Source of the DNA: Ischnura elegans
Lineage: Eukaryota > Arthropoda > Insecta > Odonata > Coenagrionidae
Assembly: GCF_921293095.1 (NCBI RefSeq)
Contig: NC_060254.1
Span: 56,466,069 to 56,530,068, forward strand
Direction of reading: 5' to 3'
Length of the DNA: 64,000 bases
Positions 2,455 through 48,609 of this stretch are shown here, one piece after another. Numbering within the stretch: position 1 is the first letter of the stretch; the number at the start of each line of letters is the position of its first letter. Made by a program: the position numbers and the translations under genes. The notes under the pieces were generated by a model. It was not told where the DNA came from, did not search any database, and worked only from the letters and a program-made list of their open reading frames with translations.

Positions 2455-3368
2455 ATTGAAGCGTTGGCATAGGGAAAGGCAGTAAGTCACAATAAATCGA
2501 AATTTCAGTTTTTTCATGGAGAAGGTGGTACATGCACATGCCAATGCCATAGACAAGGTAGGAAGTCAATAGGGTAGTTTCCTTCATCAAAGAAAACGAA
2601 ATGCATTGATTGCGATTCGTTACCCACCATTAGTGTATTCATAATACACAAATTATTTGGTTTTTGAAATACCGGTTTAGACGAATGGCAAGGGTCAAAT
2701 TTTATCCTCATTTGAAAAAGGCCAGATTGGCGCCCATGCGATTCCACTCCACGTGACGTCACAGGGACCTAGTTTCCACACGAGAGGATAGGAGTTATAC
2801 ATCGTCTGAGGTTACCAATGCATGCATGAGGCACAGAGCTCAGGGAAACATGTCTTAATAATCACCTACTAAAACTGGCTAGGGTCGGAAAGTTTTCTTC
2901 GTTTGATAAGGTATTAATAAACCTTTTTTAAGCCAAGCGCTACCTTTCAGCAAGGTACTCAGCTACCCGCTGGCAGCCTGCGACGTATCAGCGCTAAGCC
3001 TCACCTCAAGGTCACCTCACCGGGCGGGAGGGGGAACCAGAAATACGACGTACGGACATATTTCCCGGCATTCATACTTGAGCGTCGCGTTTTCGCGCGC
3101 TTGAAAATTTTCACTTTTCATTTGATCGCGAAAAATAGATATTGTCATTTAAAAATCTAAAAGCGTGAAATACGTACTCCAGGAGTAATAATCATTCGAT
3201 TAAGGCAATAAAAAAATAATAGGAAACCACCCTATTGGTACAATATATTAATTGCTACGATTGACGAAATTTGCACACTAATATAAGGTAAATCCCTTTC
3301 TTTCGACTCCTATAAAATTCACAGTTGGTGACTTACTGCCTTTCCCATGTCATCGCTTCAATTATTTT
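2455..3368. repeat. Inverted-repeat (foldback) element split by a Spy-like insertion
   Basis: The sequence at about 2455-2491 (AATTGAAGCGTTGGCATAGG followed by GAAAGGCAGTAAGTCAC) recurs inverted at about 3332-3368 with two or three differences. The arms enclose Spy-like copy 1. This looks like a small TIR element that later received the insertion. Its outer limits are not clear. Confidence 0.5.
2570..3234 (+). mobile_element. Spy-like non-autonomous DNA transposon, copy 1
   Basis: This 665-bp element begins TAGGGTAGTTTCCTTCATC and ends AGGAAACCACCCTA. It is flanked by AA on the left and TT on the right. It carries an internal CACGTGACGTCACAGGGA block and a GTACTCAGCTACCCGCTGGC block shared with the other copies. 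It is nearly identical to the copies at 19922 and 46825, so this subfamily is relatively young. There is no transposase; the 82-codon open frame across it is a by-product of the repeat. The family call rests on the AA^TT placement without duplication. Confidence 0.75.
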
Positions 3369-4609: not shown

Positions 4610-5484
4610 CAGTGGCGCAGCGAGGACATTAATAGGGTGGTTTCCTTCATCAAAGAAAACGAAAGGCATTGATCGCGATTCGTTACCCACCATTAGTGTA
4701 TTCATAATATACAAATTATTTGGTTTAAGAAATACCGGTTTAGACTAATATTTGAAAAACGCCAGATTGGCGCCCATGCGATGCCACTCCACGTGACTTC
4801 ACAGGGACCTAGCTTCTATACGAGTAGATAGGAGTTTTACATAGGAAAGTTTCCTTCGTTTGATAAGGTAATAATAATCCTTATTTAAGCCAAGCGCTAT
4901 CTGCTGGCAGGGCACTCTGCTACCTGCTAGCAGCCTGCATCGTATCAGCGCTCTAAGCCTCGCCCCAAGGTCACCTCACACGCTGACAGCGGGAACCAAG
5001 ATGATCGTTTTCCCAGCGTCACACGGCGTTTTCCCAGCATTCATACTTACCCGTCGCGTTTTCGCGCGCTTGAAAATGTTCACCTTTTATCTCATCGCGA
5101 AAAATAGGTATCGTCATTTAAAAATCTCAAAGCGTGAAATACGTACGCCAGGAGTAATAATCTTTCGATTTAGGCAATAAAAAATAATAGGAAACCACCC
5201 TATTATGTTTTGGCGGATAAACACCCCCCCCAGAGCTCAGAGAAATTTTAAGTTTTATCCATTTTACTTAATTGGATTGATATTACTAATAGAATAGTGT
5301 AAGGATTAATAAAATATCCCTCAGAAAGCCGTAAAACTCACCATTTTGAACCATTTATCTTAAAATTCCGCAATTTATAAATCTCGCACCTACCGCTTAT
5401 CCTGGTGGGAATTCAATGCCCCCACACACCCCGGTATTTGTTGCACCTAAACCCCCCCAGCCGTAATTCCTTGCTGCGCCCCTG
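4610..5484. mobile_element. hAT-type element interrupted by Spy-like copy 2
   Basis: The left terminus CAGTGGCGCAGCGAGG pairs with the right terminus CTTGCTGCGCCCCTG. The 8-bp flanks CTCAGGAC and CTCTGGAC differ at one position. The body (CCCCCCAGAGCTCAGAG, then AATATCCCTCAGAAAGCC, then CGCACCTACCGCTTA) recurs at 34115-34384 and 35670-35973. A Spy-like element lies at 4633-5202, joined as ACATTAA then TTATG, again at AA^TT. Confidence 0.7.
4633..5202 (+). mobile_element. Spy-like non-autonomous DNA transposon, copy 2
   Basis: It has TAGGGTGGTTTCC and GGAAACCACCCTA termini at 570 bp. It is shorter than copy 1 because internal blocks around the first third are missing, and it is more diverged. 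The CRE-like block reads CACGTGACTTCA. It sits inside the hAT element at 4610-5484, so it is the younger insertion there. Confidence 0.75.
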
Positions 5485-8081: not shown

Positions 8082-11000
8082 ATGAATCTACAAGCAGTTT
8101 CCCCAATGCTACGCAGAGCACTCATCAGGAGTTGTTACTATAGTAAATTACTGTCATCGCCCTCAGCCTGTTATGTGTGCACTATATCCAAAGTTGCGCG
8201 TAGTGAAGAGAAACTCGGAAACTATTTAAGGTCTAAGTACTCTTCTTTTCAGAGTAAAACTTGTTGGAAATGTGACAGTGCGGTGGAAAAATACGATTTG
8301 TTTTGTAGTGGCTGTAATACTATTCAAAAGTTAGATACAGGTCGCAATTATTTCGATTTATTTGGTATAAACGAGAGGTATAGTGTTGACCCCAAACTTA
8401 TTCAGAAGACTTTTCGCGATCTTCAGCGACAGCTTCACCCAGACTTGTACAGCAATAAAGATGAGGTAATTGGCTTTGAGGTGGTGAAGCTTTTTTAAAG
8501 TAATAATTGGACATTATAAATAGCATTCTTACTGATATTTCCTCATCTTAGGAGGAAAAAAAACTATCGGAGGAGCATTCTTCTCTAGTAAACAAAGCAT
8601 ACTCTGTGTTGAATCATCCCCTGCGTCGCGCACAGTACATGCTTCTGTTAAAAGGAGTCGACATTGAGAAAGCTCCAGCTGACCTGAGTCAAGAATTTTT
8701 AATGGAAATAATGGAGAGGAACGAAGAAGTGGATGGCTTGGAAGATGAAGACAAAATTCATCACTTGAGTCTAATGTATAAAAATGTGATGATGGAGCTG
8801 TCTAAGTAAGTTTTGGTGATATAATATCCCAATAACATATACTGGCATACGAAAATATAACTGGCACCATTCATACACTGGAAGCTGCTTGCAGCATGAA
8901 TATGGCCTAAAGGATTGATTTCATGTGTGGTCTTACATTTTGGTAATATGGTGCAATGTCAATGAATGCTCACACAAAGGGGATCAGTAGCATAACTAGG
9001 AATATTTTTTGGTGGGGGTGAGGGGGCTATTGGGCGACCCCCATACGCCACCCCAGGCAATGAGGGGTCTGGGTAAAAAATGGCATGGCATTTTACATCA
9101 TTTTGGCATTGGCATTTACTCCAGTTATTATATGCCAAAAGTAGGCAATAGTTTTAAATATTTTTTTAAATTTCACGGGAGGCTTTGGGGGGAATCTAAT
9201 AGTTACACCACTGCAGGGAATGTGTAGTGTTTTGTCAGGGTGGTAACTTCTCAGGAACTTTGAGAATATCGTACTGCCAGGGAAAATGGGAGGAGAAATC
9301 ATCTTTGTTTTACAGGCAAAATAGCGGTATTTCTTTCTGTTAACTGTAAGGATATCTTTGAAAACGATGGTATAAAGGTGACCATTTTGACTCCTCAATT
9401 ATAATTTAATCAAGTTGTCTAGTGTCACTTAGAGTATTTAGGGTATAAAGTTTGAGCTGTGTACCAATTGATGAGGTGAATCTGACAGCAAGCATCCACA
9501 CCCTAGAGTGGTGAAAGGCCTTCCAAGGTAGGATTTGTGACCCACAATGTCCAGTTTGGGGTTTTCATTCCCTGAGCTAAGTAAAGGCCTGTTTATTCAG
9601 ATTACCTGCGTTCACATTTGCTTGTACTAGTAAATTGCGAAATCTATGAATGTGAGAAAGAATAGGGTAGTTTCCTTCATCAAAGAAAACAAAAGGCAAT
9701 AATTGCGATTCGTTACCCACCATTAGTGTATTCATAATATACAAATTATTTTGTTTTAGAAATGCCGGTTTAGATGAATGGCAATGGTCCATTTTTATCC
9801 TCATTTGAAAAGGGCCAGATTGGCGCCCATGTGACGTCACAGTGACCTAGTTTCTATAGGAGAAGATAGGAGTTATACATCGTCTGAGGTTACCAATGCA
9901 TGCATGAGGCGCAGAGCTCAGGTAAACATGTCTTAATAATCACTTATTAAAACTGGCTAAGGTCGGAAAGTTTTCCTCGTTTGATAAGGTATTAATAATC
10001 CTTATTTAAGCCAAGCGCTACCAGCCAGCAGGGTACTCAGCTACCCGCTAGCAGCCTCCGACGTATCAGCGCTAAGCCTCGCTTCAAGGTCACCTCACCG
10101 GGCGGGAGGGGGAACCAGAAATACGACGTACGGAGAGATTTCCCGGCATTCATACTTACGCGTCGCGTTTTCGCGCGCTTGAATATTTTCACTTTTCATT
10201 TAATCGCGAAAAATAGAATTCGTCATTTAAAAATCAAAAAGCGTGAAATACGTACTCCAGGAGTAATAATCTTTCGATTTAGGCAATAAAAAAATAATAG
10301 GAAACCACCCTATTCCAAAATGTGCCGTGTAACCACCTAACTTGTGCAAATGCATCAACAGAAAATAGAACCTGTTCTAATTTGATTCACGCATTCATAC
10401 TTGTTCCGTTCCGGGCAAAAAATCGTTTGTGCAATCAGACATTAACTGGTACATGCTAATGTATCATGTAACATTATTTGTGTGGTACTGGTGAAAGGAG
10501 ATATGCATCTGTGTAACAAATCACCGTTGGCTGTCTCTCTTCTCCCAGTTAATGTTTTTCTTCAATTCAAACTAAGACCTATTACTGTGTTATTTTTATT
10601 CACGAGCCCTTTTCTTTTTATCCTCCTTTCCTAATGACTCGGCATTCTTCTCTGCTACATGGTTTTCATCGTTCCATATCCAGTAGGTACACTCTTCATG
10701 TATGTCCTCCGCCTCCTTGTATCCCCTTGCAGTTTCCTCTCTTCACCCAACACTTTTTGAACATCATTTCTCTGCCTTGATTTTTATTTCACCTTCTTCA
10801 TTCTCGTCCTTACCCACATCTTCAATGAGTCCAGGTTTTACTCTATTCCTCCTTATTCATGTTTCTGACCTATCACGCTCTATGCTCATTAGGCCCTTTG
10901 TTGTTATATACAATTATCACCCCATCAGCGCTCTCCTATTCATGAACACTTTCTTTGTCGTCGTAAATAATACTTTTCTTGAATCAAGTCTGATGTATAA

Positions 11001-14194: not shown

Positions 14195-14828
14195 TAGGGT
14201 AGTTTCCATCATCAAAGACAACAAAAGGCATTGATTGCGATTCGTTACCCACCATTAGTGTACTCATAATATGCAAAATATTTGGTTTTAGAAAATCCCA
14301 GTTTAGACGAATGTTAATTATCCTCATTTGAAAACGGCCAGATTGGTGGTCATGCAGTGCCACTCCACGTGACATCACAGGGACCCAGATGCTATAAAAG
14401 TAGTCAGGAGTTTAACATTGTCTGAGATTACCAATGCATCCATGAGGTACAGAGCTCGGGGAAATATTTCTTAATAATCACCTATTGAAATTGCCCATGG
14501 TCGGAAAGTTTCCTTTGTTTGATAGGGTATTAATAATCCTTATTTAAGCCAAGAGCTACATGATAACAGCCTGCATTGTAGCAGTGCTCATAGTCCCTCA
14601 CCAAGGTGGCCACACACGGCAGCAGCTGGAACCAGAATGACATCAACAGGCTTTTCCCAGCATTCGTACTTAGCCATCGTGTTTTTACGTGCTTGAAATT
14701 TTTCACTTTTCATTTAATCACGTAAAATAGATATGTATTGTCATTTAAAAATCTAAAAGCATGAAATACATACTCCAGGAGGAACAATCTTTCGATTTAG
14801 GCATTTAAAAAAATAGGAAACCACCCTA
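14195..14828 (+). mobile_element. Spy-like non-autonomous DNA transposon, copy 4
   Basis: This 634-bp diverged copy is inserted in a tandemly duplicated unit of about 39 bp (14158-14194 and 14831-14869, sharing GGCAATTTTTATCCATGG with one change). The first unit is split GGCAA / TT. The second unit is intact as GGCAATT, an empty site showing no target duplication. Confidence 0.75.
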
Positions 14829-18888: not shown

Positions 18889-21800
18889 CTATCTTCGCCT
18901 GCGACTCTTCCTGGTCCTGAAACATTGAAGAAAACCTACGTTAACATAAGTTCTATTTCAATCTCAGATTAAGAATGCTAACAGCTACATTATTCAGGAA
19001 AAAGTCAATAAAGTACATAATTGAAAGGGCCAGAGTTGGGCCAAGAGTTATCAGCAAACCTTTCCATCTAGACATAGTCATTTCTGATGTGAAACTTGTG
19101 CTCTATATTATTAATAATACATATATACATGCCTTTACAGCAGCAACTATTTAGAACCAATATTGAAGGTGCTTTGCTGGATGCGACAGGCCCCGTTTGC
19201 ATGTTATTGACAGCATTACAACAATAATAACAAAGGTCTGATAACAAAACGTACTTAGTGCCACCAGCTTATACATTGGCTCAAGTGTAGACCAGATTTA
19301 AAATCATAATAAGGAAATACATTTTACTTCATCTTTCATCCAATGTATTAAAATCTTATGACCAACAAAGAATTCCTTTTCAGTGAAATAAAAAAATGTT
19401 ACATTGATATCTAATTATTAACATCATATTGTGTTTTTTCATAAAGAGCTACAAAATTCTTATATTTACATTGGCACTTTTTGCCACTACTACCAAATTT
19501 GGTGGCACCAAGACGGTAAAATTTTGTATTTTAACTGCATTTTGGCATAAAGCCTTGAGATATTAAGACAAACTGATTAAGTGCAGGATAATTGGGCACA
19601 TAATGAGACTGATTTAAGACTTCCAGCAAAGGACAGCTTAATAGGAAGAATGGCAGAGTGAGGCCTAAGAAGATATTTTTACCCTGATTTCCATTAAGCA
19701 TATGACTGCATAACTTCAACAATGTTCATGTGAACATGCACTTCAAAATGCCTTGTGTAAAGGTGGCCAATTAGCCACTGCTCTCATTTAAAAATGATTG
19801 TTTGTCTTACTGAGCAAAAGATGCAGTTTGAAGATGTGCAATTACAGGTGACGGGTATAGTTTATCGAATTAGAGGTATAGTTTTATCGAATCTCCAATT
19901 TTCGTCGGATCTTCACCAAAATAGGGTGGTTTCCTATTATTTTTTTATTGCCTAAATCGAAAGATTATTACTCCTGGAGTACGTATTTCACGCTTTTAGA
20001 TTTTTAAATGACGATATCTATTTTTCGCGATTAAATTAAAAGTGAAAAATTTCAAGCGCGCAAAAACGCGACGCGTAAGTAGGAACGCATTTCTGGCTCC
20101 CCCTCCTGCCTTGTGAGGTGACCTTGATCGAGGCTCTGAGCGCTGATAGGACGCAGGATGCCAGCGGGTAGCTGAGTACCTTGCTGAATGGTAGCGCTTG
20201 GCTTAAAAAAGGTTTATTAATACCTTATCAAGCGAAGAAAACTTTCCGACCTTAGCCAGTTTTAATAGATATTTATTAAGACATGTTTCCCTGAGCTCTG
20301 TGCCTCATGCATGCATTGGTAACCTCAGACGATGTATAACTCCTATCCTCTCGTGTAGAAACTAGGTCCCTGTGACGTCACGTGGAGTGGAATCGCATGG
20401 GCGCCAATCTGGCCTTTTTCAAATGAGGATAAAATTTGACCCTTGCCATTCGTCTAAACCGGTATTTCAAAAACCAAATAATTTGTGTATTATGAATACA
20501 CTAATGGTGGGTAACGAATCGCAATCAATGCCTTTCGTTTTCTTTGATGAAGGAAACTACCCTATTAGTCTACATAACTTATTTCACATACTAAACAATC
20601 CAAGGGGTGGGCAAAAGCGGTTCGAGTACAAATAAAAATTTAATAATTCATTACTTATCTTGGTGTCGGACGGGTAACACATTGCAGGAGCCATCATAGA
20701 CGAGAGATGACGATCGAAAACTAAACTTGCTCAGGTGAACAAATTAGTTTGTATCAGAGGGTTTTCATGTAATTTTGAGGGACAAGTTAATGTTTTTATT
20801 ACAAAAACCATGCCTCGACCAACCCTGGCATAATCCGACCCGCCCAAATAATCTCGCTTATGCCGTCATAAGTCCGCCTGTCGGAGTCTGCCGACACATA
20901 AATAAGAAAGAAGCCGCACCTACGGCGAGGCTTCTGCCGTGCGCTACCCGACCCACCCCTCCGGTCCTAAAACTGTACACTAGGAATAAGCCGTTCATTT
21001 GCTAGGATTTTACAAAATGTAGAGAGGAAAATTTGCATCCTTTACAAAACACATCATGCCCCGTCTATACCCAAACCTTAGCAACAGTTTGTTTTCGATC
21101 GTCTTTTCTCATCTATGATGGCTTCTGCAATGTATAAGTTACCCATTTGACACCAAGATAAGTAATGAATTATTAAATTTTTATTTATACTCGAACCGCT
21201 TTCGCCCACCCCTAGGATTGTTTAGTATGTTAAACAAGTTATGTATACTAATTTTGGTGAAGATCCGACGAAAATTGGAGATTCGATAAAACTATACCGT
21301 AGCCCAATTACATACCCTGAGAACAATAGGCTAAAGAGAGATTCTTGAATAATCTAAAACAAACTAATTATGAGAGTATGGTAAGACTGCCTCATTGGAG
21401 AAATGAATGGAGAGATGTCTTTGAGTTGAAGGTCCAGGATGATCACCAGATTAGAGTGACCCTGATAAAGGAAGACATTAATGACTTACTTTTTTGGGCC
21501 TTTGACAAAGCACCAGTCAACGGATATGGGCTGCCCCAAAATGCTCGTTCCATTCAATGAGTCACGCGCTGCCTGGGCTTCCTTGAATGTTTCATACTCG
21601 ATGAGAGCATAGCCCTGAAACAAAGAGAAAGATGAAGAAGTCTATGGGGATTGCTGGTCTAGCCAAAGCATTAAATTTATTTGAACAAAAACCTTCGCAA
21701 ATGAATGGGCCATACAGAGACTAGAATGCAAACATCGAAACTGAAATAATTAGTGGAGTCGAAAAGTATAAAATACTGATCATTGAATATTTCCTCATGA

Positions 21801-26700: not shown

Positions 26701-29700
26701 TGCCTTTCATTCTACATTTGTTTGCATTTTTGTGCTCTTTTTTCCCCAACAGGGCAGGTTGGATGCCATTGATGTGGACAAGGCAGTGAAGTTTGTTGCG
26801 TCATGCATGAACTTTGATGGTGGCTTTGGGTCGAGACCAGGCTCGGAGAGTCACGCAGGCCTTGTCTACTGCTGTGTGGGCATGTTGTCTTTGACAGGTG
26901 AGGGTGACTGTCTTTGTTGTGTATACATAAGCAGATGCCTGTTGTTGGGTCATGCAATATCAAATCAGTGGTCTTTTTTTTACTCATGGGGAGACAATGC
27001 TCAAGTGATTCTATGGAAACAAAAAGGGTAGTGATTTTCTGAAACTAAAGTACAGTGCAACCTCGATATAACGACACCCCACGGTGCACTAATAAACACT
27101 CGCCATAGCGAATTGTCGCTTTACCGGAGGTGGAGCAAATAATAGCCAATATACCTGTTGCGAACTGATATACAGGAACAGGAGTGGTGCGGCGACAGAT
27201 AAACATCTATCCAATAAACGTAAGCATAAATCCAGACGAAAGGCGATGTTTTTTTGAATCACTAAATTTCCTTACTCAAACAAGGACTAACTATTCAAAT
27301 AATTTATAAGCGCCGCACTGAATAAAAATCATGGAATGCATTGTTTCGTCAATCATTATGCCAATGCACAACCAACGAAGCCATTTTTCTATGCACTTAA
27401 TTAGTTCATTTACGTGATCATTCTATTATTTTTGTATTTTCCACTGAAAATTCAAAAATTAACTGATAAAACAGTATCGCGGTTATTTAATGCCTCAAAT
27501 GTTTCCATTGGTGTATGTTTATTGTTTCTGTACGTTAAGCAGCAGTGAAGTGAAATAATGCATTACATTTGATTCTACAGTCGAAAACGGTGGAAGGTTG
27601 TATAAAGTTCCCGCCTTGGAAGACTTTTTCTATCAAATAATGTAATATCTACATCATCTACGGTAAAAAGTTTGCTAAGCTTGAAAAATGATGTGATTAA
27701 AATTGCCGTTGTTGAAAAAAGTTTCTTTTTGAGTGTTACGCTTGCGACGTATTTGAAATAATACACCGAGTTTACCACTACACTGCAAACGAGAGTTAGC
27801 TCTTCTGTGAGTTCTTCCAGCGGCCACCAGGGGATGCTCGGCTACCCACGTGACAAAAGAGAGCGCCAGTACGACTCCAACCACTGACGCGAATAGTTCA
27901 CCCTTGTAAATCCGCAACGGAGAATAAATGCGTCCATCCGGACAATTCACGCTGAGTATCATTGCTTCGTACATCCTACATCATCGCTAAGGCGCACTAC
28001 CTACCTTTAGAGGCATCATTGCAAGAAATACCTCATACTGCAAGGGTTTTGTCGGGGAGTTGTATGTAAAAAAGTTCCGTTTCGTCTATGTTATATGACG
28101 CGGGGAATACTTCTAAAGATACTTATGATCGGAGTCCTTTCTTCCACGACTTCGGGTTTACACCGGAGGCATCACCAGCAATTATGAGGGGAGATAACGC
28201 TTTGGTGCTTCGCATTAGTATAATCAACCTTCTGCACTCTTAAAATTCTCGATTCGCAATCTATCCCTGAAATATTCCGCTTTAGGCTTGGGCGTAGCCC
28301 CTTTCTCAGAAGTTCCCGCAGATTGGAATGTGCAAAACCACCCGAACAAAGCTCCTTATAACTATCGTCTGCATTCCTTGGGCGCTTCTGTTTTTTTTAA
28401 TTTTGCAGAGCGAATAGGAAGATAAATTAATTTCGACACTCTCATATTACTCCTTTATTTTTATTTTCCCGCTTAGACGTGTTTGGTGTTTTTTTGGTCA
28501 TGGTGACTGCCATCAAATGCTTTCTATTCACGCAACTCACGGACGTGCGGGTATGCTGCCGACTGCTTTCTGCCGCCCGAGGAACAAAAGAAGATGAAGC
28601 ATTCGCGAATGCTAATGCCACAATATTTTCACCAAAATTAACTACTTATTTATCGAACGACATTTTACCACATAAATTTGAGACTGAGCTCTCCATTAAC
28701 TTCATTTCTAACAGATCGCTAGCGATTACAGAGGTTAAGGAGTCTTGATGAAAGTCTTCCGGCCATGAAACCCTCGTTATGGCGAGAGCCAGCACCAAAA
28801 GGGTCTCGTAAAAACGAATTTTTTAACACGCTTATTATAGGGTCAATTGACGGTGCATCAACTATGTCTCGTTATAGCGGGAGTGTCGCTATAGCCCGTA
28901 CTCGCTTTAACGAGGTTCCACTGTATAAAGTAAGTGCTGAAAAAGTGTCACAGGTTTCTTTCTCACTAGCCCTGGTTCAAGAGAAAAACGCTGGTAAAGA
29001 TTTGGTGCAGCATCACTCACATTCAGTGCTGTCCTATCTCATCAATCCACGGTAGCTGAGGGTATGATAAAAGAATTTCTGGATTAGAAAAGTACTATGT
29101 AGTTAAGATAATTTTTTTCATCATATTTATATGTTTTAATTAAATGTCTGGAATTTCAATTTGAGTTCTCTGTCAAGGAAGAGCTAGAAAATTAGTTATG
29201 AATGTACATGGAATAAAAAAAGCCACCAACTACCTAATTGGGTCCCATGGCTCATGGATAGGGTATTAATAATCCTTATTTAGGCGAGGTGCTACCTGCT
29301 AGTAGCCTGTATCGTAGCGGCGGTCATAGCCTCCTACCAAGGTGGCATCCGGAACCAGAATGAGGTCACACAGGCTTTGTCTCATCTCTCAGCTATTCGA
29401 ATGTTTTCCTCTCTCCTCTGGTTTATTCTTTGATAGTTTTTATATTGTTATTGCATTTTGTCTAATTCATGTTTTGTTAAAATTTTCACCTTAAATTGGC
29501 ATCACAGATGCTTGTGAAAAATGATTTAAATTCATAAATATATTATTATGCATGGAAAATTTTTCCCAACTGTCCTCAGTTTTTAACATTCATCTACATA
29601 TACTTACCACCCTGCAAGCCGAATAAAAAGGCGTGTGGCAGGGGAAGTTAGGACATCAGCCGTTTACTTATAAAAGCAAATATTAAAACAAAATTACGAC

Positions 29701-46824: not shown

Positions 46825-47489
46825 TAGGGTAGTTTCCTTCATCAAAGAAAACGAAACGCATTGATTGCGATTCGTTACCCACCATTAGTGTATTCATAAT
46901 ACACAATTTATTTGGTTTTTGAAATACCGGTTTAGACGAATGGCATTGGCCAATTTTTATCCTCATTTGAAAAAGGCCAGATTGGCGCCCATGCGATTCC
47001 ACTCCGCATGACGTCACAGGGACCTAGTTTCTACACGAGAGGATAGGAGTTATACATCGTCTGAGGTTACCATTGCATGCATGAGGCACAGAGCACAGGG
47101 AAACATGCCTTAATAATCACCTATTAAAACTGGCTAAGGTCGGAAAGTTTTCTTCGTATTATAAGGTATTAATAAACCTTTTTTAAGCCAAGCGCTACCA
47201 TCCAGCAAGGTACTCAGCTACCCCCTAGCAGCCTGCGACGTATCACCGTTAAGCCTCGCCTCAAGGTCACCTCACCGGGCGGGAGGGGGAACCAGAAATA
47301 CGACGTACGGAGATATTTCCCGGCATTCATACTTAAGCGTCGCGTTTTCGCGCGCTTGAAAATTTTCACTTTTCATTTAATCGCGAAAAATAGATATTGT
47401 CATTTAAAAATCTAAAAGTGTGAAATACGTACTCCAGGAGTAATAATCTTTCGATTAAGGCAATAAAAAAATAATAGGAAACCACCCTA
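46825..47489 (+). mobile_element. Spy-like non-autonomous DNA transposon, copy 6
   Basis: This 665-bp element has AA left and TT right. It is near-identical to copy 1 (2570-3234) across its whole length, including GGGAACCAGAAATACGACGT. The CRE-like block reads CGCATGACGTCACAGGGA. Recent subfamily. Confidence 0.78.
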
Positions 47490-48050: not shown

Positions 48051-48609
48051 TAGGGTAGTTTCCTTCATCAAAGAAAAGGAAAGGCATTGATTGCGATTCG
48101 CTACCCAACGTTATTGTATTCATAATATACAAATTATTTGGTTTTTTAAACCCCAGTTTAGACGAATGTTAATGGTCAATTTTAACCTCATTTGAAAAAG
48201 GCCAGATTGGCGCCCATGCGATGCCACTCCACGTGACGTCATAGGGTTCTAGATTCTATACGAGTAGATAGGAGTTATACATCGTCTGAGTTTACCAATG
48301 CATGGATGAGGTACAGAGCTCAGGGAAAAATCTCTTAACGATCACCTATTAAAATTGCCTATATTCGGAAAGTTTCCTTCGTTTGATAGGATATTAATAA
48401 TTCTTATTTAAGCCCAGCGCTACGTGCTACAAGAGTATTATACTACGTGCTAGTAGCCTGCATCGTAGCGACGGGTATAGCCTCGTACTGAGGTGGCCTC
48501 ACACGGTGGCATCCGGAACCAGAATGACGTCACTCAGGCTTCTCCCAGCATTCATAATTAGCCGTCACGTTTTCGATTTAGGCAATAAAAATAATTGGAA
48601 ACCACCCTA
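48051..48609 (+). mobile_element. Spy-like non-autonomous DNA transposon, copy 7
   Basis: This 559-bp copy belongs to the diverged subfamily (GTAGCCTGCATCGTAGCG, GGCATCCGGAACCAGAATGA). It has lost a segment near the right end. It is flanked by AA and TT. The CRE-like block reads CACGTGACGTCATAGGG. Confidence 0.75.

Follow-up and report, generated by a model that had tools for sequence, protein, structure and literature searches.

A stretch of 64,000 nucleotides from the Ischnura elegans genome (contig NC_060254.1), here called the window, contains several copies of a MITE that begins with TAGGG and ends with CCCTA. One of them sits within one arm of a foldback element whose other arm is intact and represents a paralogous empty site. 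The locus raises the question of which group of DNA transposons has spread this MITE and whether its insertion duplicates target bases. An earlier note on the window, made from the sequence alone, had concluded that no bases are duplicated and that the element is of the Spy type.

Copies of the MITE and its target site

With the copy at position 2570 as query, BLASTN identified seven copies of 559-665 bp in the window, all with the ends TAGGG...CCCTA; the matches of two of the seven are fragmented and have internal indels. The copies and the parts of the foldback, the latter delimited by alignment across the junction, are located as follows.

2570..3234, plus strand: MITE copy, 665 bp, TAGGG...CCCTA (locus L001)
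4633..5202, plus strand: MITE copy, 570 bp
9663..10312, plus strand: MITE copy, 650 bp
14195..14828, plus strand: MITE copy, 634 bp
19875..19921, unstranded: outer segment of the foldback arm that is interrupted by the MITE
19922..20564, minus strand: MITE copy, 643 bp, within one foldback arm (basis of the empty-arm comparison)
20565..20736, unstranded: inner segment of the same interrupted arm
21075..21298, unstranded: uninterrupted foldback arm, which serves as paralogous empty site
46825..47489, plus strand: MITE copy, 665 bp
48051..48609, plus strand: MITE copy, 559 bp

As the earlier note had stated, all seven copies are preceded by AA and followed by TT. A 41-bp scrap at 29257-29297 has 83% identity to the middle of the MITE and is devoid of its ends.

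The ends of the MITE read AGGGTRGTTTCC. Across the genome (1.72 Gb in 110 contigs) the exact 28-bp left end AGGGTRGTTTCCTTCATCAAAGAAAACG, with A, C or T allowed at position -6, occurs 10,784 times as compared with zero occurrences of the reversed control, and this number is thus not due to chance. Flanking bases were read at the first 100 left-end places listed, all of which lie on one contig (C1) and include at least one duplicated locus. Positions -2 and -1 are A in 95 of 100 places each and position +1 is T in 93, while position -3 is C in 45, G in 23, T in 22 and A in only 10 places; AAAT is present at eight left ends. T occupies position +3 in 11 of 62 copies and in 6 of 55 short reads, and A at -3 is combined with T at +3 in two of the 62 copies. 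The target of the MITE is AATT, which is near-obligatory, and its extension to AAATTT is seldom seen.

The split and the intact arm of the foldback align without a gap over the junction (ACTAA^TTTTGGTG versus ACTAATTTTGGTG). Excision of the MITE copy at 19922-20564 rebuilds the arm without adding or removing a single base, so that the exact restoration claimed previously is correct to the base. The foldback at 19875-21298 is itself a dispersed repeat with 79 matches listed, mostly to the arm and with 85-94% identity; matches elsewhere often consist of two inverted arms with a few hundred bases between them.

The earlier note had also proposed a comparison with further empty sites, and 22 sites from the genome could be added. 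Twenty of them are foldback arms, belonging to 19 elements, that were picked by hand from the 79 matches listed and compared over 61 bases around the junction. All 20 are collinear over the homologous junction and 18 read CTAATTTTGG with an exact AATT, the other two being CTGATTTTGC (L202) and CTTATTTTGG (L206). The remaining two sites relate to an insertion separate from that in the foldback, L026, in which a whole MITE adjoins a DDE_Tnp_4 gene that we read as Harbinger-like. Both empty relatives of L026, L025 (98.6% identity) and L032 (98.7% identity), read CTCTGCAATTCTGAA and have AATT. Together with the intact arm of the window, 23 empty sites fix the target motif of the MITE, and the net gain at an occupied site equals the span TAGGG...CCCTA. 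Loci L049 and L065 and the window copies at 4633 and 9663 were discarded as candidates for empty-site comparison by BLAST because divergence or gaps close to the junction made the matches unusable. In L049, position -1 is T, but two of its three empty relatives show A there, as would be expected if the copy had mutated.

Target duplication and what the letters can reveal

A filled site that reads AATAGGG...CCCTATT and an empty site that reads AATT are expected both from insertion with no duplicated base and from duplication of AT, in which case the filled site is to be divided as A-AT-AGGG...CCCT-AT-T. Since the two schemes yield the same letters at filled and at empty sites, the earlier argument that the element lacks a target duplication and therefore is of the Spy type does not follow. 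The AT dinucleotide is a palindrome and the terminal inverted repeat (TIR) abuts it as AAT-AGGG, which makes a duplication invisible to empty-site comparison; because the letters are identical, AATT empty sites cannot separate the two schemes, however many are collected. What had been described as absence of a duplication is indistinguishable from a 2-bp AT duplication at A-AT-T.

Copies inserted at targets with a divergent centre are more informative. If the centre of the target was not AT, duplication places the same variant at both ends of the element, whereas blunt insertion does not. Copies whose left dinucleotide differs from AT were taken in list order: 90 came from the 462 that differ in the first base and 40 from the 667 that differ in the second. 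Of these 130 copies, 100 had a recognisable right end; the remaining 30 were left out. On the right side, 80 of the 100 have AT, nine have the same variant as on the left (GT in five, AC in two, TT and AA in one each) and 11 have another dinucleotide. Same-variant ends are more frequent than in shuffles of the right ends (9/100 versus a mean of 4.4; p=0.015), whereas the reverse complement of the left variant was found on the right in one of 100 copies as compared with a shuffle mean of 3.3. The excess persisted when L097, whose right end is probably one base off, and L072, which represents the same duplicated locus as L070, were dropped (9/98 versus a mean of 4.2; p=0.009). However, GT is a frequent right-hand dinucleotide in any case: it accompanies GT on the left in 5 of 26 copies, and of the 74 copies with a different left end six have it as well. 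For the same-variant copies L039, L052, L055 and L063, no empty relative was present among the matches listed. The co-variation leans towards a real 2-bp duplication, weakly and not decisively.

Flank variation alone was discarded as a means of deciding between 0 and 2 bp. Variant bases at positions -2, -1 and +1 were found in 5, 5 and 7 of 100 left ends, respectively, and MITE copies diverge from one another to a similar degree (group medians of 6.3-6.8% at non-CpG sites, subfamilies mixed). Most flank variants therefore look like mutations acquired after insertion, and this leaves flank variation with little power on the matter.

ISL2EU-like elements and the search for an autonomous partner

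Profile searches of the genome scored 150 of 2,144 first-look candidate places for DDE_Tnp_4 and 150 of 309 for YqaJ. A YqaJ place lies no more than 4 kb away, on the opposite strand, in at least 18 of the 50 DDE_Tnp_4 places that scored best. This pairing of genes is that of ISL2EU, and the genome contains many ISL2EU-like elements.

One of them, T022 (G000:C9:114967406-114973147; 5,742 bp; also L171, L022 and L172), has a frame that encodes both DDE_Tnp_4 (7.3e-39) and HTH_Tnp_4 (2.5e-12), while a frame running against it encodes YqaJ (2.8e-15). A THAP domain was not detected by Pfam in the two frames scanned, unspliced, on the transposase side. The ends of T022 read A-AT-AGGGAAATTGCATA and TATGCAAGTTCCCT-AT-T. 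A nearly identical copy is present on contig C19 and an altered one on C12; similarity stops at the exact end bases at both ends of the C19 copy and at the left end of the C12 copy, whose right end was absent from its expected place. All five ends of the T022 family that were read have A-AT or AT-T on the outside. T022 and the MITE thus have in common the edges AATAGGG...CCCTATT and the first four TIR bases, AGGG, and no other common stretch was found beyond AGGG and the flank. In the 59.6 kb of the window outside the seven MITE copies, AATAGGG or CCCTATT occurs only twice, which makes it unlikely that the pair of edges around T022 arose by chance.

The earlier note had suggested looking for a DDE transposase gene between the termini of the MITE. 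We examined 30 DDE_Tnp_4 loci together with 1.5 kb of sequence to either side; for five families 3 kb was added at both ends, and eight families, four of them new, were extended upstream only. Within these limited flanks, the ends AGGGTRGTTTCC surround a transposase gene at none of 34 DDE_Tnp_4 places (from the 150 scored). That search accordingly produced T022, with the same edges, and no element with the TIR of the MITE. The same holds for an autonomous relative from another group, a finding that the note had considered as speaking against its own assignment: T022 qualifies by its edge layout and its first four TIR bases, and does not by its full TIR. A weak TIR pair around T009 was rejected as being within chance expectation by our own informal estimate. 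Two more transposase genes (L183 and L185) have AATAGGG upstream, in each case as a single match that is a possible left end.

Several other elements came to light in these searches. L028-L030 (C5:3892605, C19:119343128 and C19:121366393 of G000) are three copies of a DDE_Tnp_4 gene that is opposed by a YqaJ gene; they are about 99% identical over the 3.5 kb compared and possibly represent a recent ISL2EU-like family. L035 and L036 are copies, 99% identical and with different flanks, of an element that spans about 3 kb and encodes DDE_Tnp_4; L035 has the inverted repeat TATTGGGATTTAAA...TTTAAATCCCAATA. YqaJ frames of 216 or 274 amino acids are repeated at many places (e.g., C10:93951954, C12:2076993 and C11:51098273), many of them with no DDE_Tnp_4 place nearby among the places listed, and possibly have been amplified separately.

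Assignment of the MITE family

Based on its target, its edges and the company it keeps in the genome, we consider it probable that the MITE is a high-copy non-autonomous family of the ISL2EU group within the PHIS superfamily. For ISL2EU elements, AT duplications at the target A-AT-T have been described and are backed by paralogous empty sites (PMC4482050). The MITE has the corresponding AATT in 7/7 window copies, 18/20 foldback arms and 2/2 relatives of L026, it is a TIR element, and it resides in a genome with DDE_Tnp_4-HTH_Tnp_4/YqaJ elements of which T022 has the same AAT-AGGG...CCCT-ATT edges. By contrast, the TIRs of both the MITE and T022 start with AGGG, whereas those of ISL2EU usually, and hence not strictly by definition, begin with GG (PMC4482050). 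In the T022 frames scanned, HTH_Tnp_4 was found and THAP was not; the ISL2EU transposase is assigned a THAP domain in PMC4482050 and 'HTH or THAP' in PMC9179366. A partner with the full TIR of the MITE is missing from the 34 places, and the link to ISL2EU is therefore drawn from the target, the layout of the edges, the AGGG and the genomic company, not from a common full TIR. The AATT target, the identical edges of T022 and the excess of same-variant ends favor ISL2EU over Spy. We propose that an ISL2EU-type DDE transposase mobilises the MITE in trans: it would cut at A-AT-T with a 2-nt stagger, the AGGG and CCCT ends would be joined to the target, and gap repair would double AT. On this view, the outer T and A of TAGGG...CCCTA, which the earlier note had assigned to the element, would belong to the two AT copies, each of which contributes its inner base.

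Spy-clade transposases are encoded by one ORF of more than 500 amino acids. A Spy-type MITE would be placed by blunt cuts as TAGGG...CCCTA, with AA on one side, TT on the other and no base duplicated, an assignment that now appears unlikely. It is compatible with the exact restoration at 23 empty sites, window arm included, and with the 80 of 100 left-variant copies that retain AT on the right; however, AT duplication predicts the same restoration equally well, and the same-variant dinucleotides exceed the shuffles. Spy, the sister group of ISL2EU, has been described as inserting at AAATTT with no duplication, although about 60% of the insertions of the active cgSpy in human cells were in AAWTT, a looser motif (PMC11304231). 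The MITE resembles Spy in its A/T palindrome target and lacks the AAATTT preference (A at -3 in 10/100 and AAAT in 8/100 left ends; T at +3 in 11/62 copies and 6/55 short reads; both in 2/62), for which reason we reject the Spy label. What endures of the earlier description is a non-autonomous transposon with TIRs that looks like a member of PHIS, has the palindrome AATT as its target and leaves the site unchanged upon removal, in agreement with the empty sites.

It also seems unlikely that the MITE depends on some other, perhaps undescribed, DDE transposase from within PHIS or elsewhere, which would target AATT and duplicate 0 or 2 bp. The lack of the true partner from the 34 places and the restriction of the likeness of T022 to the edge and the first four TIR bases speak for such a source, whereas the target and the edges match those of ISL2EU, and many ISL2EU-like elements are present in the genome, so that a new source is not needed. 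Tourist-like MITEs of the PIF/Harbinger type likewise have TIRs and are moved by a DDE_Tnp_4 transposase, as the present MITE probably is, but the 3-bp TWA duplication is lacking here: empty sites have AATT, and the edges AAT and ATT contain no 3-bp direct repeat. An element GGG...CCC with a TA duplication, a Tc1/mariner-like target, would account for the TA found on either edge of a filled site and is extremely improbable because empty sites should then read AATATT, as none of the 23 does.

Within the ISL2EU assignment, blunt insertion at AATT by a transposase from the ISL2EU side is improbable. If it were true, the MITE family would be intermediate between ISL2EU (A-AT-T) and its sister group Spy (AAA-TTT), and the behaviors of both groups could be understood as cleavage of a single target that is staggered by 2 nt in one case and blunt in the other.

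As far as we have seen, the MITE family is a new one of a known type; it is not named in the literature searched and may have a Repbase entry. Our study describes a very abundant MITE, whose exact left end is present more than 10,000 times, that shares one large genome with ISL2EU-like elements, and it corrects the plausible but unsafe step from an apparent lack of duplication to Spy. Where a palindromic target abuts the TIR, element boundaries and group labels derived from empty sites need a second line of evidence.
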